Virus record (IMG/VR): IMGVR_UViG_3300042673_001958
Location: 1 to 22,174 of that record
DNA length: 22,174 nt
DNA from: a virus
Direction: 5' to 3' (one strand)
The notes below the pieces were generated by a model that worked only from the letters and a program-made list of their open reading frames with translations, was not told where the DNA came from and ran no database searches. Each line of letters begins with the position of its first letter. Within the stretch, counting starts at the first letter, position 1. Made by a program: the position numbers and the translations under genes. This document shows positions 1,284 through 22,174 of this stretch, piece after piece.

Positions 1284-2137
1284 TTCCATTTATCAATGGT
1301 GAAAAGTTTTCGGAAATCCGAGTTGGTTCCATCGAGAACGGGATTTCCAATGCGAAGGCCGTTGTTGAATCCCATTTTGGGTGCGAGGTGGATGTTCTTG
1401 CCACGCATGGAGACCACCTTTTCGTGGTTGTCGAAGGCGAGGATTGCATCCGTCGCATCGGGTTGAAATTTGACGGAAGCGGCGTTGATGTGATTTCCAA
1501 TCGGATCACCGAGGGGTTCGTCAGCGAATCAAACCGCGATCGGTATATTTCCGATATGCTGCGCGAGGCCGTCGACCAGATTATGTCTGGCGAGGAGTGC
1601 AATCGATTGCACGCGCTTGCGTCTCTCGTTCGGCCAGATGGACGCTATATCTTTACAGAAGAATTCAAGGCGGTGATGCAGACCGCAGCGGAGCCTTCAT
1701 ATTGGGCCGCTCTTTACGAGACCAACCGAAAGGAGATCCGTAAGGCGGTGCATGGGACGCTTGGCGAGGACGAGGCATTGGTGCCAAAAACCCGCTATTC
1801 GACCATCCAAGAAAGAAAGATCAAAGATTATGAATCCGAGATTCACGAATCGCTTGAAATCTTGTTTGAACTTGTTCAGAATGTATCGGTAGATTTAGAT
1901 TCGATGTCTGCTGCCCGCATCAACGCCAAAGGTTGGAATGCACAAAAAGTAATAGACACGATGAAAAATGAGTGCCATACTATTGTAAATCATGGCCGAA
2001 AGGCTCTTGAACTTTCGCGGAATGAGAATCTTCCCGAAGTTGCCATGCTGCACGACAGGTTGGCCGAGTCAGTCAAAACCATGCTAATTATGCGGCGTTT
2101 CGCAAAGATCAGCACCATTGAGGAGAGTAACCGATGA
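1280..2137 (+). CDS. Unknown protein between portal and core genes (285 aa)
   Basis: I do not recognise this family. The ATG at 1280 overlaps the portal stop and its own stop overlaps the next start, both as ATGA, so it sits firmly in the head operon. The N-terminal ~75 residues look like an alternating beta-strand domain (V-D-V-L-A-T-H-G-D-H-L-F-V-V-V). The C-terminal ~130 residues are predicted helical and charged. There are no membrane segments. In T4 the genes near the portal include small prohead-core proteins (gp67, gp68), so a core or initiator role is possible by position only. The coding sequence contains a perfect 16-bp palindrome at 1597-1612, one copy of a repeat found elsewhere in the window. 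Confidence 0.8.
   Translation: MIPFINGEKFSEIRVGSIENGISNAKAVVESHFGCEVDVLATHGDHLFVVVEGEDCIRRIGLKFDGSGVDVISNRITEGFVSESNRDRYISDMLREAVDQIMSGEECNRLHALASLVRPDGRYIFTEEFKAVMQTAAEPSYWAALYETNRKEIRKAVHGTLGEDEALVPKTRYSTIQERKIKDYESEIHESLEILFELVQNVSVDLDSMSAARINAKGWNAQKVIDTMKNECHTIVNHGRKALELSRNENLPEVAMLHDRLAESVKTMLIMRRFAKISTIEESNR
1597..1612. repeat. Palindrome GTGCAATCGATTGCAC (copy 1 of the GCAATCGATTGC family)
   Basis: This is a perfect 16-bp inverted repeat inside the coding region at 1280-2137. Its central 12 bp, GCAATCGATTGC, recur exactly at 10403-10414, 18653-18664 and 21650-21661. One-base variants with a CAATTG half lie at 6852-6863, 12098-12109 and 20809-20820. This copy is in frame and encodes part of Glu-Cys-Asn-Arg-Leu-His, so codon content alone could produce it. 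The recurrence elsewhere argues against chance. Function is unknown. Confidence 0.75.
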
Positions 2138-3018
2138 ATGACAATCGTATTGTGCGCAGTTTGAACGAGGATTTTGCCCAGATCGGGTTCGCTGGAACGG
2201 CTCGCGATCTCAATCGTATGTCGAGTCAGCGTCTTGAGGAGTCGCTTTACAGCGTTCCCGCCGTCAACGCAGATTCTGATCGCTTTGATCCCATTGATGG
2301 CCCTGTTGTCACGATGGAGTTGTTCAATCGGATTGCCGATCTTGATTTCAATTCGCTTTCCGAGGACGATTGCGACGATCTTCTGAGCGGCCTTTCCGAC
2401 AAGGAACTGCCTTCTGACGATTCCGACCTTGCCGAGGCTGCTGAGGCGGTCGTCAAGGCGATCGTTGAGGCTCGTATTGCTCGTCGTCGTGCCGCAGGTT
2501 CGCGCCGCATGATCCGCACCACGCGCACCACTTCGACCGAGAAGATGAAGAGCAAGAAGTACCGTCGTTCGGCGGGCGGCAAAAGGGCTGTTCGCGTCAA
2601 GGCTCGCAAGCAGGCTGCAGGCAAACTTACGGCGAAGCAGAAGGCTTCTGCTCGCGTCACGGGCATTGGTCGCTCTGGCCTTGTTGCCGCTGCGAAGGGT
2701 CGCCTTGGCCGTGGCCCTCAGGCGATCGCTGCTGATGCGGTTTCGGACGGTCTGGCGGTCGAACTTGAGTCGATGCTTGGCGAGCAGGTTTCCAATCAGT
2801 TTGGCGAGTACGGCGAGACCGTTTCGCGCATTGCTCGCGTTCTTTCGCTGATCGAAGAGATTCTGGGCGAAGAGGTTGGTGATGTCCTTGAGTCGGCCTA
2901 CGAGAAGATGGAGAACTCGCTCCTTACGGAGTCGGTGAATCCTTCGGCTGCGTTTGGCCCGACCATCAAGGTGATTTCGCGCTGCCTTGCCGAGATCGAC
3001 CAGATGGGAAACGATTGA
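2134..3018 (+). CDS. Putative internal/core head protein with basic centre (294 aa)
   Basis: No specific family is recognised. Three zones are visible. Residues 1-110 are acidic. Residues about 114-194 are strongly Lys/Arg-rich with Ala/Gly/Thr (RRRAAGSRR, SKKYRRSAGGKR, KARKQAAGK), like histone tails or DNA-condensing internal proteins. Residues 195-294 form an acidic helical domain with several (L/I)-x-E triplets. The N-terminus is MNDNRIVRSLNE, so an LNE triplet ends at residue 12, resembling the T4 leader cleaved by the gp21 protease. Its place between portal and prohead protease, plus the basic core, fits a scaffold-associated or DNA-binding internal head protein; this is inference. Start and stop overlap both neighbours. 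Confidence 0.8.
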   Translation: MNDNRIVRSLNEDFAQIGFAGTARDLNRMSSQRLEESLYSVPAVNADSDRFDPIDGPVVTMELFNRIADLDFNSLSEDDCDDLLSGLSDKELPSDDSDLAEAAEAVVKAIVEARIARRRAAGSRRMIRTTRTTSTEKMKSKKYRRSAGGKRAVRVKARKQAAGKLTAKQKASARVTGIGRSGLVAAAKGRLGRGPQAIAADAVSDGLAVELESMLGEQVSNQFGEYGETVSRIARVLSLIEEILGEEVGDVLESAYEKMENSLLTESVNPSAAFGPTIKVISRCLAEIDQMGND

Positions 3019-3218
3019 TTGAGAGCAGGCGCAAGCGAAGGACGGCTTATTCTAGCGGTCGCCGTGAGATAACGGGACTAGATCAGGCCACTCCTTCGAT
3101 GCGCTTGGATGGAAAGAAGACGAGCAGGAAAGTTTCCCAGAAACACAAGTTGCGAGCAGAACTCGGTATCGGTATTGACCGAACACCATTCAAATTCAAG
3201 GATTGGAAGAAATCATGA
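3015..3218 (+). CDS. Small basic protein upstream of prohead protease (67 aa, TTG start)
   Basis: This is a short, very basic protein (Lys/Arg-rich throughout, with SRRKRR at the N-terminus and FKFKDWKKS at the end). The start chosen is TTG at 3015, which overlaps the previous stop as TTGA and gives coupling. An in-frame ATG at 3099 would give a 39-residue version but lacks a ribosome site. The stop overlaps the protease ATG at 3215 as ATGA. T4 has small prohead-core genes just upstream of gene 21 (gp67, gp68), and this could be a positional analogue, but no sequence similarity can be claimed. Confidence 0.62.
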   Translation: MIESRRKRRTAYSSGRREITGLDQATPSMRLDGKKTSRKVSQKHKLRAELGIGIDRTPFKFKDWKKS

Positions 3219-4978
3219 GCAAGCAGTTACTAATTGATGCAAGACCAATCAAACTTTCGCTTCAAGAGAGCGAAGGTGGCAAGATGGTTGCGCGTGGAGA
3301 GTTTGCTCGATGCGATGTTCCCACGCAGAATGGGCGCACCTACCCTCGCGGCGTGTATGAGCGCGAGGTCAAGAAGTTGCAGGAGAGCGTGGCATCGCGT
3401 CGCGCTTTCGGTGAACTTGACCACCCAGAGGATGGAAAGACTAAATTGAGCCGTGTCAGTCATGTCATCACCAAGTTGGAGATTGACAGAAATGGCGTGG
3501 TGATTGGCGAAGCCGAAATCCTAAATACGCCAAACGGTCAGACGCTCAAGGCTATTCTAGATGCTGGCGCGGAAGTTGGCGTTTCTAGCCGAGGCTTTGG
3601 CAGCACCAAGCAGATGCCTGACGGGTCTCAGGTCGTTGGCGAGGATTTCACTCTCCGCTCCTTCGACTTTGTTGCCGATCCTGCCATGAAGTCTGCTTAC
3701 CCGCAGATTTTCGCGGAGGATGTCGAGGTTGAGTTCAACGAGGACAGCCTGTTGGACGAGTTTCCGCACCTTGCCGAGGATATTCGGATGCGGGAGCGCG
3801 AGTCTGCTCGTCGCAACGCAGAGGCTGCTGTTGCCGATGTAATGTCGAAGAGCGAGACGCGAATTCGGCAGGAGATGCGCGAGGCCTTTGAGCAGCGTCT
3901 TGCAGAATCGCTTTCCAATGTTCGTGAGAGCGTTGGCAGCACCATTCGGGAGGAGTTTGAATCCGATCCTGAAATTGCGGGTGCGCGTGCGATTCTGAAT
4001 AAGATTTCGGAGATGGTCGGCTCTTTCTCTGGCAAGCAGGACGATCTGGTTCTGCGCGATGCTCTTCGCGCAAAAGAGATTGAGATTTCTGCGCTTCGGT
4101 CTTCCAAGGATTCCGAGATTGCGGATATTCGGGAGTCGCTTGGAAAGGCGAAGGAGTTTGCGCGTGTCGCAAGCCTCACCTTGGTGCTTGAGCATAGCAT
4201 TGGCGGTCATCCCAAAGCCGATCGCATTCGGAAACTGATTGGCGATATTTCGTCTTATGGTGATTCTGCAGAACTTTCTGGTCGCATTTCGGATATTGTT
4301 TCTGAATACGATGATTTTGAGAGCGAGCGTCGTTCTTTCGAGGAATCGCGCACAACTGGTCAGATTCAGTCGCTTATGGATCGGATTGACGCGCTTGAGC
4401 GTGATCTTTCCGAGGCCCGCAATTCCCTTGAGCAGGTGGAGGCTGACGCTGAAGAGCGGATTGCCGAGATTGAACTTGAGGCCGAGGAGCGGATCGCAAG
4501 CATCTCCGAGGAATCGAGCAATAAAGTTGCAAGCATGAAGGAATCTCTTGATTCTAAACTTTCTTCTGTTTCGGCGGAAAAAAATTCCTTGCAACGGAAA
4601 TTGAACGAGGCTATTGAACTTGCAGAATCTTTCCGAGACAAGGCTGAAAATGCCGATTTGATCGCGGAAGAATCGAGGCTTGACGCATACAAGTCGCGCA
4701 AGATTTCTGGTCTTGCCAATGCACCACGCCTGCGCAAGATGCTTGAGAATGTAGATAACGAAGATGCAATTGATCAAATCGTGCAAGAAAGCGGAAATAG
4801 ACGGATCGTAAACGAAGATCTTCATGCGATGCAGCAGAAACTTCGTCGCGGACAGCCGCACGACAACACAAAGATTACAGAATCAGTAGAGAAATCGAGT
4901 ATCCTTCAAGACCCAATGCTTGGGGGCTTGTCAACCAACCAGATGCTTGAACTATCAGGCGTAAAGCGAGCGAGGTAA
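3215..4978 (+). CDS. Prohead maturation protease (gp21-like, S80) fused to coiled-coil scaffold
   Basis: The N-terminal ~165 residues are a prohead serine protease of the T4 gp21/S80 type. GELDHP carries the likely catalytic His70, VGVSSRG the likely Ser124 or Ser125, and a following DFVADP contains the conserved acidic region. The remaining ~420 residues are highly charged and heptad-rich (strongest about 365-495), ending in a compact C-terminal segment (PMLGGLSTNQ). This is how a gp22-like scaffold looks. In T4 the protease (about 212 aa) and scaffold (about 269 aa) are separate genes; here one 587-aa chain carries both. Several L-x-E triplets at the junction (LDE ending at residue 182, LAE ending at 188) could be self-cleavage sites. 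I chose ATG 3215 because GGAAGA lies 5 nt upstream and it overlaps the previous stop; an in-frame TTG at 3203 is less likely. Confidence 0.93.
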   Translation: MSKQLLIDARPIKLSLQESEGGKMVARGEFARCDVPTQNGRTYPRGVYEREVKKLQESVASRRAFGELDHPEDGKTKLSRVSHVITKLEIDRNGVVIGEAEILNTPNGQTLKAILDAGAEVGVSSRGFGSTKQMPDGSQVVGEDFTLRSFDFVADPAMKSAYPQIFAEDVEVEFNEDSLLDEFPHLAEDIRMRERESARRNAEAAVADVMSKSETRIRQEMREAFEQRLAESLSNVRESVGSTIREEFESDPEIAGARAILNKISEMVGSFSGKQDDLVLRDALRAKEIEISALRSSKDSEIADIRESLGKAKEFARVASLTLVLEHSIGGHPKADRIRKLIGDISSYGDSAELSGRISDIVSEYDDFESERRSFEESRTTGQIQSLMDRIDALERDLSEARNSLEQVEADAEERIAEIELEAEERIASISEESSNKVASMKESLDSKLSSVSAEKNSLQRKLNEAIELAESFRDKAENADLIAEESRLDAYKSRKISGLANAPRLRKMLENVDNEDAIDQIVQESGNRRIVNEDLHAMQQKLRRGQPHDNTKITESVEKSSILQDPMLGGLSTNQMLELSGVKRAR

Positions 4979-4980
4979 TT

Positions 4981-6564
4981 ATGGAAGCACGACGGATTTT
5001 GGCAGAGCAGGGGCAGGGAACCGCAGCGGACGCTGGATTTGTCCAGCGCGTTGCACAGAAGTGGAGTCCACTTCTGGAGGGCGTTGAGAATCCTTGGGAT
5101 CGCGGTGTTCTTGCGATGCTTATGGAGAACCAGATGGGGCATCTTCGTTCGCTGAACGAGGAGACGCTTTCGACTGGTGTTGGCTCCTTCACCAAGTATA
5201 TTTTCCCGATTCTTCGGCGTGTATTCCCGAACCTTATCGCCAATCAGATCGTCTCGGTTCAGCCGATGACTTCTGCCGTTGGTGGTATCTTCACCTACGA
5301 GTACAAGTATGGTGCCACGAAGGGTACGACCGTCGCGGGTACCAACCTGATCCAGAACTTCCAGAAGTTTTATTCTTCTGAGTATGTTGACTACGAGATC
5401 AAGGTTGCCGCTTCCCTTGTCAACGGTGTCAAGGTCATTTGGAGCGGTGTCACCAACCCGACCGACCGCACTCCCTTCAAGTGGCTCCCTGTTGCTCCCC
5501 TCAATACGAGCAAGGGTTATCTTGCCACGATTTACTGGACGAGCGGCGCGGCTCTCAAGAGCGTGACCGACAATGGTGCGGGCGTTCTCGTCGGTGACGG
5601 CACTGGTACCATCGATTACACGACTGGTGGTTGGACGCTTGATACGACGGGCCTGATTCCTGACTACGACACGCCGATCTACTCGACCTATTTCTACAAC
5701 TCGGAACTCGTTTCTGGCACCAAGGCGCCGGGCGCAGGCATCACGACTGCGAACTACGCTTCGGCTGATCAGGTTGCCGAGATTCCCGATCTCAACCTTG
5801 ATATCACGCTGACCACGGTCACCGCCATCACGCGCAAACTCCGCGCTCGTTGGTCGGCTGAGGCTGTCGATGACCTTCGCGCTTTCCACGGCCTCAACGC
5901 CGAGACGGAACTTGTCGCAGGCATGGCGAACGAAATTTCGCTTGAACTCGACCGCGAGATCATCACCGATCTTATCACTGGTGCGCAGTTTAGCGCGTCT
6001 TACTCGTTCACGGCTGGCCCTGCCACTCCGACCACGGCGAACGGCGGTCAGTTCTCTGAAATCGACAGCATTCGTGGTCTGCTCACGATCATCGAGTCGG
6101 TGTCGGCGCAGATTCACCGCGCTTCGCTCCGCGCACCTGCCAACTTCATCGTTGTCAGCCCTGCCGTTGGCGCGATGCTCTCTCAGTTGACCACGCATGG
6201 CGACTTCATGATCGTCAACCGCGCTTATGATCAGCAGGTTGCTCCCTCCTACGGCCCCATGAACTCCAACTTCGGTGTGAACCGTCTTGGCACGCTCATG
6301 AACAAGTATGTTGTGTACCAAGACCCGTTCCTTGGTGCTAACGGCGGCGCGAACATTCTTATCGGCCTCAAGGGTGCGAACTTCCTTGACGCAGGTTATG
6401 TGTACGCACCGTACATCCCGCTGCAGGTCACGCCCACCTTCCTTGATCCCGACGACTTCACCTTCCGTAAGGGTCTGCGGACTCGTTACGCGAAGAAGAT
6501 GCTCCGCCCTGAGTACTACGGCGCGGTCACCGTTACGGGTATGCCCTCCATCGGTGGTGTCTAA
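4981..6564 (+). CDS. Major capsid protein, gp23-like
   Basis: This 527-aa protein is close in length to T4 gp23 (521) and builds the head lattice (HK97 fold by family). Matching blocks are KWSPLLEG near residue 27, RRVFPNLIANQIVSVQPM near 79-96, and RARWSAEAVDDLRAFHGLNAETEL near 288-311. A candidate maturation site is LNE58-60, before ETLSTGVG, close to where T4 gp23 is cut (Glu65). A second L-x-E (LAE7-9) lies at the very N-terminus. An insertion zone at about 130-265 is Gly/Thr-rich and contains GTIDYTTG (209-216), a motif also present in the tail sheath. GAGG 5 nt before the ATG overlaps the protease stop. Codon use is strongly biased, as expected of a very highly expressed gene. Confidence 0.95.
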   Translation: MEARRILAEQGQGTAADAGFVQRVAQKWSPLLEGVENPWDRGVLAMLMENQMGHLRSLNEETLSTGVGSFTKYIFPILRRVFPNLIANQIVSVQPMTSAVGGIFTYEYKYGATKGTTVAGTNLIQNFQKFYSSEYVDYEIKVAASLVNGVKVIWSGVTNPTDRTPFKWLPVAPLNTSKGYLATIYWTSGAALKSVTDNGAGVLVGDGTGTIDYTTGGWTLDTTGLIPDYDTPIYSTYFYNSELVSGTKAPGAGITTANYASADQVAEIPDLNLDITLTTVTAITRKLRARWSAEAVDDLRAFHGLNAETELVAGMANEISLELDREIITDLITGAQFSASYSFTAGPATPTTANGGQFSEIDSIRGLLTIIESVSAQIHRASLRAPANFIVVSPAVGAMLSQLTTHGDFMIVNRAYDQQVAPSYGPMNSNFGVNRLGTLMNKYVVYQDPFLGANGGANILIGLKGANFLDAGYVYAPYIPLQVTPTFLDPDDFTFRKGLRTRYAKKMLRPEYYGAVTVTGMPSIGGV

Positions 6565-6602
6565 TAGACACTAGGGTTTAGGCCCGACCTTTTAGGCTAG
6601 AC

Positions 6603-6647
6603 AATCCGCGAGCATTTCCCTACACCAAGGGTAGTGTCTCGCGGATT
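6603..6647 (+). terminator. Stem-loop after the major capsid gene (possible attenuator/terminator)
   Basis: AATCCGCGAG at 6603-6612 pairs perfectly with CTCGCGGATT at 6638-6647 across a 25-nt loop, which can hold a small inner CCCT/AGGG stem. Only a short T run (ATTTCGCATTTC) follows, so termination is probably partial. A hairpin directly behind the capsid gene could set capsid expression above the downstream genes or protect the transcript end. A second small inverted repeat, GTGTC-TAATA-GACAC, spans the capsid stop codon at 6557-6571. Confidence 0.6.
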
Positions 6648-6669
6648 TCGCATTTCAGGAGTTGGAAAG

Positions 6670-7242
6670 ATGATTCGACGCTATATGCCTGTTGATAATA
6701 AGAACCCAAAGCGGGAGTGGCCCTGTCGTGCTGCATCTGGCGAGATGGTCATGGTGAAATGCGGCCAGATTACGCATACAACTGAAGATTTAACTTCGTG
6801 GGTAAAGTCTGGGCTTCTCTGCGAATTCCCGCCCATCACCGTTGCCGCTGCGCAATCAATTGCGCCTGTTGCGCCTGCGCCAACTCCTGCTCCGTTTGTT
6901 CCGCGCACGACATCAGAATCGATTGGAAATGCGTTCTCTGACGCGCTCTCTGGCGTGTTCCAAAAGGCGGCTCCTGCCCCTGTTGCGGCTCCTGCTCCTG
7001 CGCCTGTTCAGGTGGCTCCTGTTGCGCCTGCTCCTGTTGCGCCAGAGGCGGTCGAGGAGGCTGATGAGGAGGCAGAGGATGTCGTTGATGCTGTTGCAAA
7101 TACGACTGATTACAGCACCATGAAGAGGGCCGCTCTGTGGTCTCTTGTTGTGCAGCGCGGGCTTGATTCTGGCCGAGAGTATCGCAGCCTCTCGAAAGAC
7201 GATCTGGTGTTTATTTTGAGCGGAGGGACGAATGTTGCATGA
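6670..7242 (+). CDS. Unknown structural-module protein with Ala/Pro linker and C-terminal HeH/SAP-like end
   Basis: The family is not recognised. The start is ATG 6670, supported by AGGAG at 6657-6661 and GGAAAG closer in; an upstream in-frame GTG at 6634 lies inside the stem-loop and is unlikely. Residues 1-55 form a small domain (SGEMVMVKCG then a short helix). Residues about 60-130 are a low-complexity Ala/Pro/Val linker ending in an acidic run. Residues about 147-183 (YSTMKRAALWSLVVQRGLDS...LSKDDLVFIL) look like a helix-extension-helix SAP/HeH-type motif, often nucleic-acid or protein binding. The architecture parallels the protein at 12883-13350 (small N-domain, Ala/Pro/Glu tail). The position after the capsid gene suggests a head or neck accessory role. 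Confidence 0.8.
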   Translation: MIRRYMPVDNKNPKREWPCRAASGEMVMVKCGQITHTTEDLTSWVKSGLLCEFPPITVAAAQSIAPVAPAPTPAPFVPRTTSESIGNAFSDALSGVFQKAAPAPVAAPAPAPVQVAPVAPAPVAPEAVEEADEEAEDVVDAVANTTDYSTMKRAALWSLVVQRGLDSGREYRSLSKDDLVFILSGGTNVA

Positions 7243-8640: not shown

Positions 8641-9681
8641 ATGAGCCGAAGTATGTTTGATTTTATCAATAGCACCAATCATCTGATGGAGAATGTCTCT
8701 GACTATGATGAGTGGCGGGGCATTCTCGATGATTTTCGCGGCAACCGCGATCAGGCATTGATGGATTACACGCAGAAGATCACAGGCACTTTCGATAGCG
8801 TGAATGCCGCTACCGCGACGCGCCATAGCGATCTTGTGGAATCGAATATGCGCTCGGCGGGGTTCTCGGTGTTCCCTGTGGATCGCGTGAACTTTCCCAA
8901 GCGCGAGAACCTGAATGGGCCGTATCGGTATCACACTGGTGCGGTTCTTTACTACGATCCTTCGCGCAAGTCGTACCTTGACCCGCGCCAGAACCGTCAC
9001 CTTTCCTTGGCAGAAGCCACCGACATTATGGGAGTAAGCACCATGTTTGAAGATCAGAACCGTTCCGATTCCGAGTTTGCAGTCTTTTTCGATGATCGCA
9101 ACGCTGCTCTTGCAGCGTATCGTGCGGCACAGGATTCTGGCCTGCGGGCTGGCGAGGTGACCTACGATTCGACGGTTGATCGCCGCTACGGTGTTGGCCG
9201 TTACGCTGTTCGCGTTGCGCCCCATGTTCGCTTCACCAAGTCGGAGCAGTTCCTTGATTTTATGGAGTCGCTGTACGACCATATCGAGGAGTCCGATCTT
9301 GACCAGTTTGAGTGGATGATCAACGAGACCGTTGATTTTATCAACAGCGGTGGTCGTCGTCGTGGTCTTGAGGAGCGCAAGGGCGGCACTGGCGGTCGCA
9401 AGGCCGAGTATGGCGGCATTCCTGCGGATCGAGTCCACAGAGGTAACCCGTTGCATCGTTCGGCTGACGGCGAGTTTGGTGCAAAAAGTCAACTTCCGAT
9501 GGGCTCGTATGCCTACAGCGGCGAGAACAAGAAGGCCCGCAAGCAGAAGACGAAAGACGGTCGCCTGCAGTTTGTTGCGACGAAACTTCCCTGTGGCCGC
9601 AAGGCTCGCAGGAAGAATGTTGCGCAGGCCGACAAGTATCGTCGTTGTTGGGACGGCCAGATTCCTGACTGGGCAAAGTAA
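8641..9681 (+). CDS. Unknown virion-module protein with basic C-terminus (346 aa)
   Basis: The family is not recognised. GAGAGG at 8631-8636 precedes the ATG. The N-terminal ~20 residues contain an L-M-E triplet ending at residue 17, which might be a protease-cleaved leader but is less clear than in other genes here. The middle (about 70-220) is mixed alpha/beta. Residues about 235-260 are Gly/Arg-rich (SGGRRRGLEERKGG). The C-terminal ~60 residues are Lys/Arg-rich with two Cys (ENKKARKQKTKDG, LPCGRKARRKN). The basic tail and its position among head/neck genes fit an internal or DNA-contacting protein, as inference only. No catalytic motif or membrane segment is visible. Confidence 0.8.
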   Translation: MSRSMFDFINSTNHLMENVSDYDEWRGILDDFRGNRDQALMDYTQKITGTFDSVNAATATRHSDLVESNMRSAGFSVFPVDRVNFPKRENLNGPYRYHTGAVLYYDPSRKSYLDPRQNRHLSLAEATDIMGVSTMFEDQNRSDSEFAVFFDDRNAALAAYRAAQDSGLRAGEVTYDSTVDRRYGVGRYAVRVAPHVRFTKSEQFLDFMESLYDHIEESDLDQFEWMINETVDFINSGGRRRGLEERKGGTGGRKAEYGGIPADRVHRGNPLHRSADGEFGAKSQLPMGSYAYSGENKKARKQKTKDGRLQFVATKLPCGRKARRKNVAQADKYRRCWDGQIPDWAK

Positions 9682-10166: not shown

Positions 10167-10394
10167 ATGAATCCAAACAAAAGCCTTCGCAATCTTATCG
10201 AGGCAAAGGATACTCGCGTTTCCGATTATCTTGCCGACATCGAGACGGCGATTCTTGGGTTGGAGCGGGCCGCGAAAAAGGTACGCGATCTTTTGGAGGA
10301 GGACGACGGAGAATTTGTGCCTTCTCGCGTGCTTCAGGTTATGGATCGGATTGACCGAGGCATTGATGATCTGAAAAAGGATCACAACATTTGA
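10167..10394 (+). CDS. Small unknown protein with LIE leader (75 aa); candidate internal head protein
   Basis: The family is not recognised. ATG 10167 is preferred over GTG 10164 because GAGG (10158-10161) is 5 nt upstream. The N-terminus is MNPNKSLRNLIE, so an L-I-E triplet ends at residue 12, exactly as in the next gene, while the rest of the two proteins differs. T4 internal proteins carry a short N-terminal leader ending in I-A-E that targets them into the prohead and is cut by gp21. By analogy this could be cargo. The remainder is helical and charged (LERAAKKVRDLLEEDD) with no membrane segment. The stop is 32 nt before the next ATG; that gap contains a repeat palindrome. Confidence 0.72.
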   Translation: MNPNKSLRNLIEAKDTRVSDYLADIETAILGLERAAKKVRDLLEEDDGEFVPSRVLQVMDRIDRGIDDLKKDHNI

Positions 10395-10426: not shown

Positions 10427-10648
10427 ATGAACCCGAACCAGAAATTGTCTGCATTGATCGAGGCCGCAAACGGCTTGGATTCCGAAGATTTTGAGCAGAA
10501 AGTGCAACTTGCCGCGACCGATTTTCACACGCTTGATCGGGATAAGTATGTTCGCAGCCTTCCCAGAGATAAGCAGGCAAATATTCTTGCCCTTGCGAAG
10601 AAGATTGGCGACCTTGCGGGTGAAATTTTGGAGATTGCAGGAAAATGA
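10427..10648 (+). CDS. Small unknown protein with LIE leader (73 aa); candidate internal head protein
   Basis: The family is not recognised. ATG 10427 is chosen because AAGGA lies 8 nt upstream and the protein then begins MNPNQKLSALIE, matching the leader of the preceding protein (MNPNKSLRNLIE) with the L-I-E at the same residues 10-12. A TTG at 10391 would add 12 residues and spoil the match. Downstream of the leader the sequence is helical (FEQKVQLAATDF, ANILALAKKIGDLAGEIL) and unlike its neighbour. A shared leader on different bodies is what a targeting/processing signal would look like. The stop overlaps the next ATG (ATGA). Confidence 0.7.
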   Translation: MNPNQKLSALIEAANGLDSEDFEQKVQLAATDFHTLDRDKYVRSLPRDKQANILALAKKIGDLAGEILEIAGK

Positions 10649-15966: not shown

Positions 15967-15972
15967 TATTGA

Positions 15973-16476
15973 ATGTCTTTTATTCCTGAAATCATCATTC
16001 AAGAGGTTGTCGGCGGCGGCACCTTTACAGGCGTTGCTCCTGATGGCGCACTTTCTGGGCCTTTGCCGCCGAACTTGGGCGACCCCTATTATGGTGGACG
16101 GGTAAACTTCTATTCACAATCCACGGATGGCGGTCTTTACCGCGCTCCTGATGCTGTTGGAACCTATCTTTCCACCGTTATGTTTAATGGTGCAGGAACC
16201 ACGGATTGGTCGATCGATTTGGTAAGCGACTCTTATCCTGTTGGAACGCCTGTTTCGTTTTCGTACAACATTTTGACCTATTCGACAGGCATTGTGAGCG
16301 GTTTCTTTTCGACTGCAGAGCAGTTTGTTTGGATGCCGACGCGCCCCATTTTTATTCCGCCAAATCACTATCTAAAGTTTACGACGACAGGCAATCTTTC
16401 TTCAGACGCTCGCTTGACCTATATGGTTGGCGGCGGTTGGGGTTATCGAACTCTTCAAATGTTTAGCACGAATTGA
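15973..16476 (+). CDS. Unknown beta-rich tail-module protein (167 aa)
   Basis: The family is not recognised. TTGGAG (15958-15963) lies 9 nt before ATG 15973. The protein is rich in Gly, Thr, Ser and aromatic residues, with alternating strands (VSFSYNILTYSTG, HYLKFTTTGNLSS), typical of virion decoration or fibre-like proteins. Its first residues (IPEIIIQEVVGGG) echo the sheath N-terminus (YPGVYIEEVAGAP) loosely. T4 goes directly from sheath to tube, so this is an extra gene between them. It could be a sheath- or tube-associated ornament; there is no direct evidence. Confidence 0.8.
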   Translation: MSFIPEIIIQEVVGGGTFTGVAPDGALSGPLPPNLGDPYYGGRVNFYSQSTDGGLYRAPDAVGTYLSTVMFNGAGTTDWSIDLVSDSYPVGTPVSFSYNILTYSTGIVSGFFSTAEQFVWMPTRPIFIPPNHYLKFTTTGNLSSDARLTYMVGGGWGYRTLQMFSTN

Positions 16477-16484
16477 GGTAATGC

Positions 16485-17075
16485 ATGGCACGCGCAGAAA
16501 CTACTGATTTCCTCCAAAATTTCCGTTTCCATGTCACTACATCATCAAGTGGCTACAATCCGTTGAAATTCAATCAAGCGGGTACGGGTACGGGCGGCGA
16601 GGCTGGATTCCAGTCTGTGTCGATTCCTGATATCTCGATCGAAGCGACCGAGTATCGTGAAGGCACCTACAAATACACCCGCAAGTTTCCGGGGCCTCCG
16701 ACCATCGCGGACATCACGCTGATTCGTGGCGTTATCGTGCAGGATACAAAGTTTTACGATTGGGCCGTGAACACCTATTCTGGCGGTCAGTATCGCGTTG
16801 ATCTCAATATCTTGCAGTATACCCGCAGCGATCTTGCCACGCCCCAGAGCCCTGCCCAGAACAGTACTGTTCCCACAACTGCGTCTCGTATCTACAAGTG
16901 CTACGAGTGCTTGCCCACGCAGGTGAAGCCTGCAGGCGATCTTGATGCGACTTCTGGCGAGGTGGCGATGGCAGAATTGACGGTCGCGATGGAATATTTC
17001 ACGATTTCCAATACTGCGCCTGCTGCTCTTGTTGGCACCAACAACTTCTCGACTCAAACGCCCACGCCTCAGTAA
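16485..17075 (+). CDS. Tail tube protein, gp19-like (copy A)
   Basis: The tail tube is the inner rigid cylinder of the contractile tail. The T4 gp19 family (about 160-200 aa) is recognised by the order FLQNFRFHV, GFQSVSIPDISIE (41-53), a basic YKYTRKFPG segment, ITLIRGV (77-83), FYDWA (90-94), and the C-terminal GDLDATSGEVAMAEL strand. GAGG at 16475-16478 precedes the ATG by 6 nt and overlaps the previous stop. It is followed at once by a second gp19-like gene with nearly the same N-terminus (MARAETTDFLQN against MARSEFTDFLQN). Confidence 0.93.
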   Translation: MARAETTDFLQNFRFHVTTSSSGYNPLKFNQAGTGTGGEAGFQSVSIPDISIEATEYREGTYKYTRKFPGPPTIADITLIRGVIVQDTKFYDWAVNTYSGGQYRVDLNILQYTRSDLATPQSPAQNSTVPTTASRIYKCYECLPTQVKPAGDLDATSGEVAMAELTVAMEYFTISNTAPAALVGTNNFSTQTPTPQ

Positions 17076-17081
17076 TCGTTC

Positions 17082-17690
17082 GTGGCGCGGTCAGAATTCA
17101 CAGATTTTCTGCAGAATCACCATTTCTGGTTGGTCGAGATTTCGGTCAGCAGTCGTGCGCCATATTTTGTTGCAGGCTCGCTGACCAGTGGGTTTCAATC
17201 TGTAACCATGCCAGAGATCACAGGTGAGACGGAATCTGTCTCGCAAATGTGTTCTCCTTATCGTGTAAATTACAACCGAACTTACACCTACAATTCGTTG
17301 ACGCTGCTTCGCGGCGTGACATCATACGATTCGTCTTTTTACCGTTGGATGTACCGTTCGATGCGTGGCGAGGATCGCGTGCAGCGCAATTTCCTGCTTC
17401 TGCACTTCAGCAATGTTGGCGTTGATCAAGGTGGCGCACCATTGAAGACTGGCATCGCGCAGAATGTAGGTCTTGGAAACCTTGAGACCCTTCGCGCTTT
17501 CGGGAAGGGATATTATTTATGGGATTGCATTCCTATTCGATACAAAGCGGGTTCGGACTTGGATGCATCTTCTGGTGATGTTTCGATTGCAGAACTGGAT
17601 ATCCAACCTTCATATTTCACTGAATTCTCGCTTGACCCGCTGCAGTTGACCGACCTTAACGCTGTTCCTGCTCTTGGTATTGCAATATGA
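17082..17690 (+). CDS. Tail tube paralogue, gp19-like (copy B, GTG start)
   Basis: This second gp19-family protein shares MAR-x-E-x-TDFLQN, GFQSVTMPEI, YNSLTLLRGV, FYRWM and the C-terminal AGSDLDASSGDVSIAEL with copy A, but is otherwise diverged. The GTG start at 17082 is fixed by this alignment; no ribosome site is visible, so coupling to copy A, 6 nt upstream, is likely. In T4 the tube-like fold also occurs in the tube initiator gp54, so one copy may form the tube body and the other a cap, initiator or completion ring. Which is which cannot be settled from sequence, though copy A is closer to canonical gp19. The stop overlaps the next ATG. Confidence 0.88.
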   Translation: MARSEFTDFLQNHHFWLVEISVSSRAPYFVAGSLTSGFQSVTMPEITGETESVSQMCSPYRVNYNRTYTYNSLTLLRGVTSYDSSFYRWMYRSMRGEDRVQRNFLLLHFSNVGVDQGGAPLKTGIAQNVGLGNLETLRAFGKGYYLWDCIPIRYKAGSDLDASSGDVSIAELDIQPSYFTEFSLDPLQLTDLNAVPALGIAI

Positions 17691-18031
17691 GTGAAGAAGA
17701 TCTGAAAAACCAAGAACAAAAGGCAGACGATAACATGAACTTCTGGGCAAAACAGAATCCGCTTCTGTACCTAATCGTCGTCCTGATCATGGGCGGCAAT
17801 GGTGCAGGGCTTGTGACCAACAACAGCCTGCGCGACGATGTTCGGGCGATTGGAAAGCAGTTAGACGATGCGCTTCGTCGGATTGAAGATCAGGAGCGCA
17901 TTAGCACCATGTATCGTCGTGAAATCGACCTGCTTGATCGTCGGACGACCGACATTGAAGATCGCGTGAAGCAAATTGAGGACGATCAGGGCGATGCCAC
18001 GGACGAAGAGCCACGCCCGCGCCGCAGATAA
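17687..18031 (+). CDS. Single-TM coiled-coil protein (114 aa)
   Basis: ATG 17687 overlaps the tube paralogue stop (ATGA). A hydrophobic segment at about 25-43 (NPLLYLIVVLIMGGNGAGLV) fits one transmembrane helix. It is followed by a long charged heptad helix (about 47-98) and an acidic then basic tail (DEEPRPRRR). The N-terminal 20 residues are polar. A one-TM plus coiled-coil layout is shared by inner-membrane spanins and some holin-like proteins, but there is no lysis cassette here, so the role is open. Lysis or tail-membrane contact are both guesses. It is the last gene of the structural operon before a strong promoter. Confidence 0.8.
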   Translation: MSEEDLKNQEQKADDNMNFWAKQNPLLYLIVVLIMGGNGAGLVTNNSLRDDVRAIGKQLDDALRRIEDQERISTMYRREIDLLDRRTTDIEDRVKQIEDDQGDATDEEPRPRRR

Positions 18032-18035
18032 ATGT

Positions 18036-18063
18036 TTGACAAACGATCTTGCGGGTGTAATGT
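18036..18063 (+). promoter_or_regulatory. Strong sigma70-like promoter before the accessory block
   Basis: TTGACA (18036-18041), a 16-nt spacer, then TAATGT (18058-18063). The -35 is consensus. The downstream gene at 18097 has a perfect AGGAGG ribosome site (18086-18091). This suggests host-polymerase transcription of the accessory genes independent of the late structural operon. Confidence 0.7.
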
Positions 18064-18096
18064 CGCCGTTGCCTGAACAAACCAGAGGAGGCAAAA

Positions 18097-18651
18097 ATGA
18101 GTGAGTTTTTTCGACGGCTGAATGAGGCGCAGAGCGCAGGCGAACTTCCAGAATGGGATGCGGATGGCGACATCAAGTATCGCACTGCTCTTGGCGAGAT
18201 CACTTTCCACACGGACGACGAGATCGAGGCTGCTACGATCAATCGGGTGGGCGGCGTTACGGGCTACGACGACAAAATGAAGTTTTTCGCGGATACGATC
18301 GTTGATCGGATCGCCAAAGGTCGGCTGAAGGTCGAGCGATGGAGCGAGGAGATTCTCGTTTCGCGCCGAGACGGAATGCAGACCGACATCAAGTTGGTCG
18401 CGCCCAATGGCATGAGCGCGGTCATTACGATTTACTACGATAAGGACGGAATGACCTTCGACATGAATCAACTCGGCCAGAACCCTATGTCAAGGTACGC
18501 TGACCTTGAGGTCTTTGCGCAGGGTCAGAAGCAGAATTTCGATGCCGCGATCAAGGATGCGATTGCCGCGCTGCAGGGCGACCTTGAGGATGTGAATTCG
18601 TTCCGAGTGTTGTGGCCTCGGTTCGGCCACGCGCCCTACTACGGCAAGTAA
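18097..18651 (+). CDS. Unknown soluble protein with LNE leader (184 aa)
   Basis: This gene has the best ribosome site in the window (AGGAGG, 5 nt spacing) and a consensus-like promoter just upstream. The family is not recognised. The N-terminus, MSEFFRRLNE, has basic residues followed by an L-N-E triplet ending at residue 10, the same type of leader as several other unknowns here. The rest is mixed alpha/beta (LGEITFHTDDEIEAATI, DIKLVAPNGMSAVITIYYD) with no membrane segment or catalytic motif. If the leader is cut by the prohead protease, this would be an internal head protein; strong early-type expression would instead suit a host-interaction role. Unresolved. Confidence 0.8.
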   Translation: MSEFFRRLNEAQSAGELPEWDADGDIKYRTALGEITFHTDDEIEAATINRVGGVTGYDDKMKFFADTIVDRIAKGRLKVERWSEEILVSRRDGMQTDIKLVAPNGMSAVITIYYDKDGMTFDMNQLGQNPMSRYADLEVFAQGQKQNFDAAIKDAIAALQGDLEDVNSFRVLWPRFGHAPYYGK

Positions 18652-18665
18652 CGCAATCGATTGCG
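18652..18665. repeat. Palindrome CGCAATCGATTGCG (copy 3), intergenic
   Basis: This perfect 14-bp palindrome begins at the base after the stop codon of the previous gene and ends 12 nt before the next ATG, abutting the GGGAGG ribosome site at 18667-18672. Its context (stop, then ACGCAATCGATTGCGC) is nearly the same as copy 4 at 21649-21662. Confidence 0.75.
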
Positions 18666-18677
18666 CGGGAGGCGACC

Positions 18678-19025
18678 ATGCGGAAACTAATTGAGCAGAC
18701 GGAGCGGATGCTTACCGAGGGCGGGCAGACCTTTATGGTAACCGCTCGCGGGGCAACGCCAGAGGTCGCCTTTAGGAATGCGGTCGCGGACGCCAGAAGG
18801 CGGTATGGCGATGATGGTTACACGGGTACGATTGCCGAAAAGAGCAAGTTTGTGCTTATCAACCTTCCGACAAATTACGATCAAATCCCGCTGTCTTACG
18901 CGAAAGAATTTGCTCGATCGCTGATCGACAAAGAGGATCGTCGGATTGACGACAAATGGGGGCCGTCAGGGGCGATTGATTTGCGGAACGGCGAGTATCT
19001 TTTCTTCGGTTGGGCATCGAGTTAG
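18678..19025 (+). CDS. Conserved-type unknown with LIE leader (115 aa)
   Basis: ATG 18678 is chosen over an upstream TTG because GGGAGG lies 5 nt before it. The protein begins MRKLIE, with another L-T-E triplet ending at residue 14, both possible prohead-protease sites. The body has a compact alpha/beta domain including AFRNAVADARRRYGDDGYTGTIAEK, a segment I have seen in unnamed phage and plasmid proteins, though I cannot name the family. It is soluble, with no membrane segment. The palindrome at 18652-18665 sits just upstream. Confidence 0.78.
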   Translation: MRKLIEQTERMLTEGGQTFMVTARGATPEVAFRNAVADARRRYGDDGYTGTIAEKSKFVLINLPTNYDQIPLSYAKEFARSLIDKEDRRIDDKWGPSGAIDLRNGEYLFFGWASS

Positions 19026-19026
19026 C

Positions 19027-19308
19027 ATGAGACCGTTCGATAAAGAAAAGAACAGTTATGCGGTTTCTGGCCTCCGTCTTTTGGTTCAGTCGGACATCAA
19101 ACGCTTGGACGAGACGCTTGCGGATATCGCGGATGCAGGAAGTGCCGCATCCAAAGATTTGAAAGATCCGCTGCGCGATGTTTACCGTCAGGTGCGGGAT
19201 GCCAAGCGGTTGCTACAGGCTGCAGAGGTTGAGTTGGCGACGATCAGTACCAAGCAACTTGGCAGCAGCCTTGCCTCGCTTCTCGACACGCTGAACAAGA
19301 AGAAATAG
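19027..19308 (+). CDS. Small helical unknown protein (93 aa)
   Basis: ATG 19027 lies 1 nt after the previous stop with no clear ribosome site, so coupled translation is likely. The protein is almost wholly helical and charged (IKRLDETLADIADAG, DVYRQVRDAKRLLQAAEVEL) with a Lys-rich C-terminus. It has no L-x-E leader in the first ten residues. The family is not recognised. Confidence 0.68.
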   Translation: MRPFDKEKNSYAVSGLRLLVQSDIKRLDETLADIADAGSAASKDLKDPLRDVYRQVRDAKRLLQAAEVELATISTKQLGSSLASLLDTLNKKK

Positions 19309-19339
19309 GGTTTCTGCCTTGCGGCCATGCGGTTGAGGT

Positions 19340-19368
19340 TTGCGCCTTATCGCGTGATCGGCTATGAT
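19340..19368 (+). promoter_or_regulatory. Sigma70-like promoter
   Basis: TTGCGC (19340-19345), 17-nt spacer, TATGAT (19363-19368). It lies 27 nt before ATG 19395 in an 86-nt gap, so the transcript would have a short leader including GAGG at 19386-19389. The -35 TTGCGC is the same as in the promoter candidate at 21010. Confidence 0.62.
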
Positions 19369-19394
19369 CTTTTCGTCTAACGAGTGAGGTCGAA

Positions 19395-20207
19395 ATGTCG
19401 GTGGATATCTCTAGGTTGATCGGGTTGCTTGAGCAGGACTTGGATGACGATGTTTCCGAGCCTTTGCAGGAGGAGGGCGATGCGCCTTCTCCTACTCGCG
19501 AGGCCTCCACAAAATCGCTCATCAAGCGCGGCCTGAAGCCTCTTGATAGGACGCCGTCAGGGGCCAAATCAGCCGAGGCAGAGCCAGATGCGGGTGCTTC
19601 ATCGGGTCTCGACCTTACCCTGCCTAAAACCGTTGCAGACGCGGCCAAGAAGGGGCTCGATCTGCGTCGTCGTCGGGAGGCGTTGAAGGCATCTGGCGAG
19701 ATCGGTTCTAGCGAGTCGTTGGGCGGCACAGATATCGGTGTTGCTCGCGCCGTTCAACTCTCGGACGGTGGCACCATTACGCTATCGGCGGTAAAACGCA
19801 TGGCGGCATATTTTGCTCGTCATGAGGTCGACAAGAAGGCCGATGGGTTTGGCAACGACGCAAAGCCAAGTGCAGGCTATGTGGCGTGGCTGCTTTGGGG
19901 CGGCGATCCTGCGGTTGAGTGGACGCGCAAGATTTTGCGAAAGGCAGACCGTGAAGGTGCTGTCACCGAGGCGGTTCTTGATCGCGCCAATCGAGCAAAA
20001 CCCCTGCGCGGAAAGGGCAAGGCGATCGCCAACATTTTCAGCGCGAACGATGTCACGATTTCGATCACGCTTGATCTAGACGATCTTCGGAACCTGCTGC
20101 GCAAGTACGAGGTTGAGATCGAGGCTGCGGATTTGAAGAAGGCAAACGAGCAGAGCAATGTTTATCGGGTTCTCTTGAAGTATGATCCGAAAGGCCCGAA
20201 GTCGTGA
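19395..20207 (+). CDS. Unknown protein with conserved FARHE...WLLWGGD phage domain (270 aa)
   Basis: GAGG 5 nt before the ATG and a promoter upstream. Residues 1-70 are acidic and disordered, beginning MSVDISRLIGLLE, so an L-L-E ends at residue 13. Residues about 75-182 form a conserved domain: LPKTVADAAKKGLDLRRRRE, GVARAVQLSDGGTITLSAVK, YFARHEVDKKADG, then SAGYVAWLLWGGDPAVEW. I know this block from many phage proteins of unassigned function, often near head genes, but cannot give a name with certainty. The C-terminal ~60 residues form an alpha/beta domain (VTISITLDLDDLRNLLRKYE). The stop overlaps the next start (GTGA). Confidence 0.82.
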   Translation: MSVDISRLIGLLEQDLDDDVSEPLQEEGDAPSPTREASTKSLIKRGLKPLDRTPSGAKSAEAEPDAGASSGLDLTLPKTVADAAKKGLDLRRRREALKASGEIGSSESLGGTDIGVARAVQLSDGGTITLSAVKRMAAYFARHEVDKKADGFGNDAKPSAGYVAWLLWGGDPAVEWTRKILRKADREGAVTEAVLDRANRAKPLRGKGKAIANIFSANDVTISITLDLDDLRNLLRKYEVEIEAADLKKANEQSNVYRVLLKYDPKGPKS

Positions 20208-20845
20208 ACACGGTCGATGCCATTCGGTTTTTATCTGGGATTGGCATGGCGGTGCCACTGCCTGATCAGCGTCAGGCGATGTTGGTAAAATCAAAGGTGA
20301 TTCCTGTATCTGTTTCGGAGATCGTTGATGTACCATATCCATCAAACGAGAGTGAGGCTGTCCGACAAGAACTGGCGTATCTTGCGTCACTTCGTCCTTC
20401 TAGAGATGAGGCTCGGTTCGCCAAGGTTGTCGATGGAGACTTGGCTGCGCCCTTTCGATCCTACCTTGCCGATCAGGGACTGCCGATTGATATCTCGGTG
20501 GTGGGATTGCTCGTCAGCGAGACTGTACCATTGATGCTTGCGTTGAAGTTCAAATACAACCGATCGAGGCCGCGAGAGTTGGCATATATGTATGGTGTTG
20601 ATCTGGATGTTTTTGATTCCAAATCTGCAAACACGCCATCGTATCCAAGCGGTCATATGCTTCAGGCGACGCTCATTGCAGAGGTCATCGGCGCGTTGCA
20701 TCCACAGCACCTTGATGGGTTGCGCGAGATCGCAGAAAAGATCGGCTTGTCGCGGATGCAGTTGGGTCTGCATTTCCAGAGCGACATTGATTACGGAAGA
20801 ATGTGTGCGCAATTGATTGCGCCGCTCGTCAAAATCAACTCGTAA
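20204..20845 (+). CDS. PAP2-superfamily phosphatase (213 aa)
   Basis: All three signatures of the PAP2 / class A acid phosphatase / vanadium haloperoxidase superfamily are present in order: K-x6-RP (K115 to P123), PSGH (148-151) and SR-x5-H-x3-D (S183, R184, H190, D194). The two His residues and the Arg/Lys set are the known phosphate-binding and nucleophile residues of the family, so the enzyme is probably active on a phosphomonoester or pyrophosphate. The substrate is unknown. No signal peptide is evident; one hydrophobic stretch at about 97-114 fits a buried core helix. The GTG start at 20204 overlaps the previous stop. Presence in a structural region is unusual. Confidence 0.9.
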   Translation: MNTVDAIRFLSGIGMAVPLPDQRQAMLVKSKVIPVSVSEIVDVPYPSNESEAVRQELAYLASLRPSRDEARFAKVVDGDLAAPFRSYLADQGLPIDISVVGLLVSETVPLMLALKFKYNRSRPRELAYMYGVDLDVFDSKSANTPSYPSGHMLQATLIAEVIGALHPQHLDGLREIAEKIGLSRMQLGLHFQSDIDYGRMCAQLIAPLVKINS

Positions 20846-20910
20846 AGATCTTTTGATCGCAAAAACGGACTTGACGAGTCTCCAATCATCGATCAAATGG
20901 TTCGTGCGCT

Positions 20911-20944
20911 AAAAAACCTTTCTCCTGCTCTGGATCGAGAAAGG
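20911..20944 (-). terminator. Intrinsic terminator on the minus strand
   Basis: CCTTTCTC (20917-20924) pairs perfectly with GAGAAAGG (20937-20944) over a 12-nt loop. On the + strand six A's (20911-20916) come before the stem, so read leftward the hairpin is followed by TTTTTT, a textbook rho-independent terminator. No minus-strand gene is seen in the window, so it would stop antisense transcripts entering the PAP2 gene from the right. Confidence 0.7.
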
Positions 20945-20953
20945 AACACAACT

Positions 20954-21011
20954 ATTTGTGAAAACGCGAATTGATTTGTGAAAAAGCAATTGTGGTGCAA
21001 AAAAGATGTTG
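20954..21011. repeat. Three tandem ~19-20-nt repeats upstream of a promoter
   Basis: Copy 1 is ATTTGTGAAAACGCGAATTG (20954-20973). Copy 2 is ATTTGTGAAAAAGCAATTG (20974-20992). A degenerate third, TGGTGCAAAAAAGATGTTG (20993-21011), runs into the -35 element. Each has a TGTGAAAA-like core and ends in TTG. The spacing of about two helical turns per unit puts the cores on one face of DNA, as for cooperative operators. Confidence 0.65.
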
Positions 21012-21037
21012 CGCCCAAGTAAAATCATGATACCATG
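21010..21037 (+). promoter_or_regulatory. Promoter candidate for the beta-rich virion gene
   Basis: TTGCGC (21010-21015), 16-nt spacer, TACCAT (21032-21037), with TG at 21029-21030 one base before the -10, i.e. an extended -10. It abuts the tandem repeats, so a repeat-binding regulator would sit directly at the -35. Confidence 0.5.
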
Positions 21038-21071
21038 AACTTCAACCACTCTCTCTTACTAGAGGTTTATC

Positions 21072-21647
21072 ATGGCATACGACATCACTAATGCTCTTCT
21101 TCAGGTTACCGATCGCGTCGGCACTTCGATTGCTGACCCTGTTCCCGCGCCTGCGGCAGGTAGCACGATTCTTTATACCACTCCGCAGGGTTTTGTTGCG
21201 CAGCAGTCGGCTGCGACTTGGTATCTCGACAAGCCTGTGTCGGTTGCCTTTAGCGGCGCGGGAACTCTGACGGGTACGGTTTCGTATGTGAGCCTTCTCG
21301 CTGCGCCGTTCACGATCCCCAACACGGTTGAGAGCGACAGCAGCACGACGACGACCTACTGCGCCGACATCAACTTTGGCTTCACCTTTACGGGTGCGAC
21401 CGCTGCTAGCGCGGGCTTCTATGTGCAGGCTGTTCTTTCGACGGGGGCGACTGCCGACTTCTTCATTGCGGCTAACGGCAGCACGGCGACTACGGGTACG
21501 GCTGTGATTCGTTGGTGGTTCTCGGATGTGAGCGGCACCACGGTTGACTTCAAGTTCAAGAAGATTGCTTCGGGCGACACGCTGACTGTGGTGCAGGCAT
21601 CTACGCAGCCTCGTTACGCGCTTATTCGCCGCGACTTCTCTGCCTAA
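21072..21647 (+). CDS. Beta-rich Thr/Ala/Gly protein, candidate abundant virion/decoration protein (191 aa)
   Basis: GAGG (21062-21065) lies 6 nt before the ATG, behind a dedicated promoter region, and a strong stem-loop follows. The protein is rich in Thr, Ala, Ser and Gly with alternating strands (GTLTGTVSYVSLLAAPF, INFGFTFTGATAASAGFYV, GTTVDFKFKKIASGDTLTVV) and a single Cys, typical of capsid decoration or tail-fibre-tip sandwich domains. Codon choice resembles that of the capsid gene (repeated ACG-GGT, CTT, TCG), suggesting high expression. No family is recognised. Having its own promoter and terminator sets it apart from the operon-embedded structural genes. Confidence 0.85.
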   Translation: MAYDITNALLQVTDRVGTSIADPVPAPAAGSTILYTTPQGFVAQQSAATWYLDKPVSVAFSGAGTLTGTVSYVSLLAAPFTIPNTVESDSSTTTTYCADINFGFTFTGATAASAGFYVQAVLSTGATADFFIAANGSTATTGTAVIRWWFSDVSGTTVDFKFKKIASGDTLTVVQASTQPRYALIRRDFSA

Positions 21648-21648
21648 A

Positions 21649-21662
21649 CGCAATCGATTGCG
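21649..21662. repeat. Palindrome CGCAATCGATTGCG (copy 4), intergenic
   Basis: Perfect 14-bp palindrome beginning 1 nt after the stop codon at 21647, before the stem-loop at 21671-21713. It shares its TAA(A)CGCAATCGATTGCGC context with copy 3. Confidence 0.75.
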
Positions 21663-21670
21663 CCTGCGTA

Positions 21671-21713
21671 ACGCTTGCATGGAGTAACGAAATAGGTTAC
21701 TTTGTGCGAGCGT
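21671..21713 (+). terminator. Rho-independent terminator-like stem-loop
   Basis: ACGCTTGCA (21671-21679) pairs with TGCGAGCGT (21705-21713) with one G-U pair. Inside, AGTAAC (21683-21688) pairs with GTTACT (21696-21701) around a GAAATAG loop. A T-rich tail, TTCACCTTTT, follows. It lies between the beta-rich gene and the next gene and probably ends the former's transcript. Confidence 0.7.
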
Positions 21714-21733
21714 TTCACCTTTTGGAGGACAGA

Positions 21734-22174
21734 ATGAGTATGCGTCGCTTGATTGAAAGTTTGGACAATGCAATTTATGAGGCCTACGGTCGCAACAAGC
21801 AGAAAAAGGTCAACACCAAGAACAAAGAGGACTTGGCCACATACAAGACTGGAAAGTCAAGTGTTGAGGCCGCAGATAAAGCGACTGAAGACGCAAAAGT
21901 GGTCTTTGATGACGCAGTGAAGCAATACAAAGATGGGTATCTTTCGATTACCGACAGTTTTCAAGACTTTGATTTCGATGATTTGAGCAAAGAGGATTTC
22001 AAGGCTATTGATAGTGCCTTCGACAAACTGAATAAGTTGTCAAAAAAAGTGAACGATCCTTACTATTCCTTTCTGGATGCGGCTTCGGAATCTGATGAGG
22101 CTTTTAGAAATGCATTCAACCCGACTCTCCGTTCCACAAGTCGTCCTTCTCAATACAGCAAGTATTACAAATAC
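21734..22174 (+). CDS. Unknown protein with LIE leader, 3'-truncated by window edge
   Basis: The frame is open from ATG 21734 to the last base (147 codons), so the gene continues outside. GGAGGA (21724-21729) is 4 nt upstream. It begins MSMRRLIESLDNAIYE: two Args, then L-I-E ending at residue 8, then I-Y-E ending at 16, again the leader pattern seen in other unknowns here. The rest is charged, Lys/Asp-rich and helical (SSVEAADKATEDAKVVFDDA, SDEAFRNAF), and the visible end is Ser/Tyr-rich. No family is recognised. A candidate internal head protein by leader only. Confidence 0.8.
   Translation, partial: MSMRRLIESLDNAIYEAYGRNKQKKVNTKNKEDLATYKTGKSSVEAADKATEDAKVVFDDAVKQYKDGYLSITDSFQDFDFDDLSKEDFKAIDSAFDKLNKLSKKVNDPYYSFLDAASESDEAFRNAFNPTLRSTSRPSQYSKYYKY

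Follow-up and report, generated by a model that had tools for sequence, protein, structure and literature searches.

Capsid targeting sequences are known from the T4 internal proteins IPI, IPII, and IPIII and from Alt (PMC9026906, PMC3012670, PMC5694885, PMC12373910). Proteins of recognizable function have also been detected in the particles of cyanophage S-CREM2. Mass spectrometry of purified virions identified a SAM hydrolase, a cytidylyltransferase, a kinase of APH/ChoK-like type, and a nuclease resembling Cas9 (PMC10665884). The authors cautioned that co-purification was not excluded; the same text proposes encapsulation and names no targeting signal (PMC10665884).

Here we analyzed a stretch of 22,174 bases from an IMG/VR virus record (the window), of which 29 proteins were taken for leader counts. 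A nearest-DNA search with the window returned no near relative among named phages. As judged from gene order and protein families, the window is from a distant T4-superfamily myovirus. Comparisons were made with related contigs, chiefly G005 (42 kb) and G010 (54 kb). The original prediction held that seven proteins carry short N-terminal leaders ending in L-x-E and form an uncharacterized set of internal head proteins. All seven leaders were found at the coordinates given and in frame, and are listed with the other relevant features.

2134-2169, plus strand: leader MNDNRIVRSLNE of a core-position protein (ORF 2134-3018); orthologues in ten contigs read RSL[NSD]E followed by DF
3215-4978, plus strand: fusion of an S77 (gp21-type) prohead protease with a coiled-coil scaffold (PF03420, E=3.1e-20; PHROG head maturation protease, E=7e-49)
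4981-5160, plus strand: propeptide of the major capsid protein, ending LRSLNE60 before ETL (R-S-L-N-E invariant), with a second L-x-E at residue 9 (LAE)
8641-8691, plus strand: tentative further leader MSRSMFDFINSTNHLME (ORF 8641-9681); orthologues in close relatives have L-[ML]-E17, with x variable
10167-10202, plus strand: leader MNPNKSLRNLIE on a 75-residue protein, in a slot between neck genes
10427-10462, plus strand: leader MNPNQKLSALIE on a 73-residue protein
18097-18126, plus strand: leader MSEFFRRLNE on a 184-residue protein with a body of unknown type (ORF 18097-18651)
18678-18719, plus strand: leader MRKLIEQTERMLTE (ORF 18678-19025), in which L-x-E occurs twice; the final cut is predicted to follow E14
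19395-19433, plus strand: leader MSVDISRLIGLLE (ORF 19395-20207; PHROG 2859, E=2.7e-20)
21734-21757, plus strand: leader MSMRRLIE (ORF 21734 to the end of the window)

Head genes, prohead protease, and capsid protein

The head genes are ordered as portal, a conserved unknown gene, 2134, a small basic protein, the S77 protease-scaffold fusion, and the major capsid protein. After these come neck proteins, the sheath, a pair of tail-tube paralogues, and several unknown genes. Portal, sheath, and tube were named by gene order and by analogy with T4-like proteins. The small, very basic protein (3015-3218) has a TTG start and separates the 2134 gene from that of the protease, a position that recalls T4 gp68; relatives are 67-91% identical. 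The tail-tube paralogues are adjacent (16485-17075 and 17082-17690) with 27-29% identity across copies, and G005 also has the pair.

The predicted gp21-type protease was confirmed by its Pfam S77 assignment, by a match to the solved T4 gp21 structure (PDB 5jbl; E=8.5e-11), and by retention of the GELxHP and GVSSRG motifs, with GELDHP and GVSSRG aligning to GELNHP and GVSSRG of T4. The window is thus that of a phage with an S77 prohead protease.

A site that the original prediction had not picked up lies at residue 60 of the major capsid protein. This R-S-L-N-E sequence, which lies at the place of cleavage in T4-type capsid proteins, was invariant across four proteins of close relatives. More distant contigs have L-[NQ]-E, or MNE in G046. 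The same RSLNE string ends the leader of the 2134 protein, whose gene lies between portal and protease and is conserved in relatives. Of the claim that this protein is cargo, the leader stood and the cargo role was not supported; the protein is best seen as a conserved component of the prohead core that shares the cleavage signal. The N-terminus of the capsid protein is itself similar to a cargo leader, with MEARRILAE in the window and MESRRLLAE in relatives. It is possible that this core-binding end of the capsid protein is what cargo leaders mimic.

Frequency and conservation of the leaders

The leader-bearing bodies fell into separate BLAST clusters, in line with the prediction that they are mutually unlike. 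The window therefore holds short N-terminal leaders with an (L/I)-x-E end on unrelated bodies. Most of the seven ORFs are preceded by a Shine-Dalgarno-like stretch, which is weak for 10427. An L-x-E end at residues 6-13 was present in 8 of 29 window proteins (the seven leaders and LAE9 of the major capsid protein). When residues 2-61 of each protein were randomized over 20,000 rounds, the expectation was 1.28 +/- 1.09 proteins and no shuffle reached 8. With the pattern [LI]-x-E at residues 6-15, 10 of 29 proteins were positive, versus 11% of internal windows of the same length (Fisher p=0.003). Similar N-terminal excesses were seen in G005 (21% vs 9%) and G010 (22% vs 11%; p=0.011 each). Among 100 protein families from the window and related contigs, L-x-E occurred at residues 6-13 in 18, compared with about 6 per later eight-residue bin.

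Named phages with an S77 protease gave clear excesses for T4 (p=0.003), immuto (p=0.0007), and Slicko01 (p=0.008), weak ones for Mel-JY01 and part of LR756511, and none for S77-positive RM378. Two phages without the protease had no N-terminal excess (10% vs 8.5%; 7% vs 9%). The scan of T4 recovered MKTYQEFIAE, MELITE (Alt), MEGLIE (gp67), and MLKEQLIAE (gp22).

As the base rate of the motif is about 10%, one leader alone proves nothing. The N-termini could be ordinary amphipathic helices with L-x-E triplets by coincidence, given that a triplet of this kind occurs at that position in about a tenth of proteins and that likely false positives exist, such as the sheath and an exonuclease. We consider this very improbable in view of the shuffles, the S77-less controls, the fixation of L and E while x varies, and the exact junctions in the 18678, kinase-like, and SAM-lyase families described below. 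The sheath (IEE13) and tail protein 15973 (IPE6) fit the loose pattern, are probably not leaders, and were left uncounted. The G005 exonuclease (MLGRILTE) was rejected as cargo, its G003 orthologue having no motif.

Across orthologues, L and E were fixed and the middle residue was free: RSLNE, RSLSE, or RSLDE in 2134, RRLNE or RRLSE in 18097, LIE or LVE and LTE or LSE in 18678, and LLE or LVE in 19395. The L-[ML]-E17 of 8641 had not been picked up by the original prediction. The G010 orthologue of 18097 begins MSEFMRRLSE; its leader is 80% identical and its body 30%, and the leader codons differ. No match to 18097 was found among named phages. Leaders 10167 and 10427 are likewise alike in protein and different in codons. 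Such codon differences indicate that the constraint acts on the protein, and regulatory conservation at the DNA level was rejected on this ground. A single fixed string, as in the T4 internal proteins, was also rejected because the leader differs by lineage.

Several leader genes adjoin tail-tube genes, and the leaders might accordingly address the tail or another site, or serve as translation signals. This is extremely improbable: matching leaders differ in codons, and L-x-E is a prohead-protease site that recurs as the same RSLNE in the capsid protein.

The remaining leaders vary in context. Orthologues of 19395 have leaders ending in LVE12 and LLE15 that are elsewhere dissimilar. The 19395 body contains a domain seen near the N-terminus of protease- or capsid-related proteins in other phages; a fold search against the PDB gave nothing significant. 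Toward the C-terminus, residues ~199-254 of 19395 have weak similarity to ribosomal protein L25/Ctc, below cut-off in both Pfam (E=0.002) and NCBIfam (E=0.013). A PAP2-superfamily phosphatase without a leader (20204-20845; PF01569, E=3.8e-8) overlaps the 3' end of 19395 and lies beside it in G005 and G010 also. The 21734 ORF is incomplete, running off the end of the window, and has no orthologue. Its leader type occurs in relatives as MSMKRLIE on a G010 pentapeptide-repeat protein and as MGMSRLIE on another G005 body. Six of the leader-bearing proteins were submitted to PADLOC, and none matched a defence system.

Exchange of leaders and bodies

When the structural block was compared among the window, G005, and G010, 11 of 20 accessory families carried leaders, versus 3 of 22 conserved families (Fisher p=0.005). 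The three conserved families are the 2134 protein, the capsid protein, and 19395. Accessory slots hold a different body in each of the three contigs. The set thus consists of accessory, rapidly exchanged genes, with the exception of conserved 2134 and 19395.

The 18678 family contains both tagged and untagged members. A single-sequence scan found no relatives, and an alignment query found 164 matches in viral contigs. Start sites were analyzed at the best 80 of these loci, one of which is G005. Among the other 79, none showed a leader, and 73 start with Met plus the residue aligned to Gly15. Sixty-nine of these 73 have a good ribosome-binding site, and 69 lack an in-frame ATG more than 6 codons upstream. 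The L-x-E end falls at this junction in both the window copy (MRKLIEQTERMLTE) and the G005 copy (MMMNRNLRSLVEQMQGNRRVLSE), the latter ending RRVLSE before GG. A cut at LTE14, the second L-x-E, which the original prediction did not notice, would restore the usual Gly N-terminus of the family. The originally proposed cut at LIE6 is probably not final, LTE14 being likelier because family members start at that junction. Of 47 scanned contigs with leaderless copies, two (G044 and G046) encode an S77 protease as well, which makes the leader an optional feature of this family. A fold search of 18678 against the PDB gave nothing significant. G046, a distant relative, has a recurring N-terminal motif of its own on three proteins: LVEDLQGLL (4455), LLVDLQAHLL (29718), and LLEDLQGLL (61550).

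Other bodies occur behind different leaders at a shared junction. A G010 protein with MSFKKSIQSLRALTE followed by APLP has a homologue in S77-positive Alishewanella phage Slicko01 with its own leader, MKIYNLYSTLLE followed by APLP. The body appears kinase-like from its sequence; it had no Pfam match, and matched PHROG 4301, which has no named function. In Slicko01, eight genes in a row have leaders of the type M[KN][IF]xxLY (MMMDKLY in one), and one of these genes encodes an ADP-ribosyltransferase (PF18760, E=2e-11), recalling T4 Alt. Members of a SAM-lyase family (PF23780, E=4e-13) have the conserved start S-S-[LI]-x-R in common, one of them with K-S in place of S-S. In nine phages this start follows mutually unrelated leaders of 10-31 residues ending in LEE, LDE, LSE, LGE, FNE, LNE, or INE; among the SAM-lyase phages, the S77 protease was confirmed in three (Slicko01, Mel-JY01, and S-CREM2). 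The leader in the tenth phage, AG-345-E02 (MRTFQEFQQLCEGGLAR), departs from L-x-E. Four proteins of Flavobacterium phage immuto with dissimilar bodies have leaders like MENFDLKKFLVEN.

The S-CREM2 virion enzymes resemble these cases. The SAM hydrolase, kinase, and cytidylyltransferase begin MKDFDSFLEE, VKRFDAFLTE, and MKNFSSFLTE, and the Cas9-like protein (OR473000.1, 7704-10313) has LRFASFMAE ~16 residues from the annotated start, such that all four carry F-x-x-F-[LM]-x-E near the N-terminus. The Cas9-like N-terminus looks like a short extension followed by a leader. Of 28 virion proteins classed as non-structural or hypothetical, 7 had [LI]-x-E at residues 6-13, versus 13 of 143 undetected proteins (p=0.025). 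For F..F[LMFI].E, a pattern picked after viewing these sequences, the counts were 5 of 28 and 1 of 143.

Another explanation is that all seven proteins are prohead core or scaffold parts, drawn in, cut, and largely degraded or expelled, with none injected. The conserved 2134 protein occupies a gp67/gp68 position, T4 gp67 and gp22 start with the motifs recovered above, and the bodies of 10167 and 10427 are small and acidic (pI 4.7 and 5.2). For the set as a whole we regard this as unlikely. Proteins 18097, 18678, and 21734 are accessory and swapped among relatives, the 18678 family is leaderless in many phages, and a tagged SAM lyase and kinase were found in S-CREM2 virions (PMC10665884). For 10167 and 10427, of which no relatives were found, either role may apply, as cargo or as small acidic core proteins. 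Their slot is occupied in relatives by other leader-bearing genes, encoding a 333-residue protein in G005 and a 258-residue protein in G010.

Proposed role and comparison with known systems

We consider it likely that the leaders are T4-like capsid-targeting sequences, providing prohead entry, release by the S77 protease, and probable injection. Otherwise unrelated proteins would be drawn by their leaders into the prohead core during assembly. Cleavage after L-x-E by the S77 protease, whose gene adjoins that of the capsid protein, would then leave the body free inside the head; this cleavage is strongly suggested by the comparisons with relatives. Freed bodies would accompany the DNA and, most probably, pass into the host when it is infected, where they could counter host defence or assist takeover at an early stage. 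We infer these last steps from T4 and from the recognizable bodies behind such leaders in relatives. The best cargo candidates among the seven are 18097, 18678, 19395, and 21734. The predicted cargo set was supported by the leaders, the protease, L/E conservation, and leaderless homologues, and was not supported for the 2134 protein or the E6 cut of 18678.

We also lean, less firmly, toward a broader reading. In S77 phages, lineage-specific (L/I/F/M)-x-E leaders would constitute a portable tag swapped onto a shared stock of enzymes for anti-restriction and host takeover (SAM lyase, ADP-ribosyltransferase, and kinase-like, Cas9-like, and pentapeptide-repeat proteins), making the injected cargo of many uncultured phages predictable from sequence alone. 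Many virion-borne effectors escape notice as they have no homology in common. A short tag with a recognizable protease would allow their prediction and lead to new anti-defence proteins. It would also account for the SAM lyases, kinases, and Cas9-like protein in cyanophage particles, and would show that a mechanism known chiefly from work on T4 also operates in distant phages, most of them uncultured.

Related principles operate in other heads. In phage P1, an N-terminal signal sends the cargo protein DarB into the head; the first 30 residues suffice, and the available text reports no common L-x-E leader family (PMC9024508). In phiKZ and SPN3US, head and ejection proteins are cut by the phage's own prohead protease at x-x-E, although the propeptides are usually much longer and the motif is A/S-x-E (PMC5694885).

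T4 is the closest parallel. Its core protease is of the same family and its accessory genes are variable. Its leaders are short (10 residues; 6 in Alt) and end in a gp21 site on bodies otherwise unlike, and Alt, cut at ITE-6, has a leader as short as MSMRRLIE. In IPIII of T4, changing Glu to Asp at the cut site prevents processing and leaves targeting intact (PMC9026906). In contrast, the window leaders are another sequence with no single string, some having two L-x-E sites, and no similarity of window bodies to T4 internal proteins was seen. None of the window leaders is MKTYQEFIAE or close to it; this string was not treated as required because T4 Alt (MELITE) differs too. The set is thus not an uncharacterized kind, as originally proposed, and belongs to the T4 principle of capsid-targeting sequences and internal proteins. 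What is new is a lineage-specific leader on that known principle, in accessory slots that resemble the T-even internal-protein loci, with products alike only in the leader (PMC12373910, PMC3012670).
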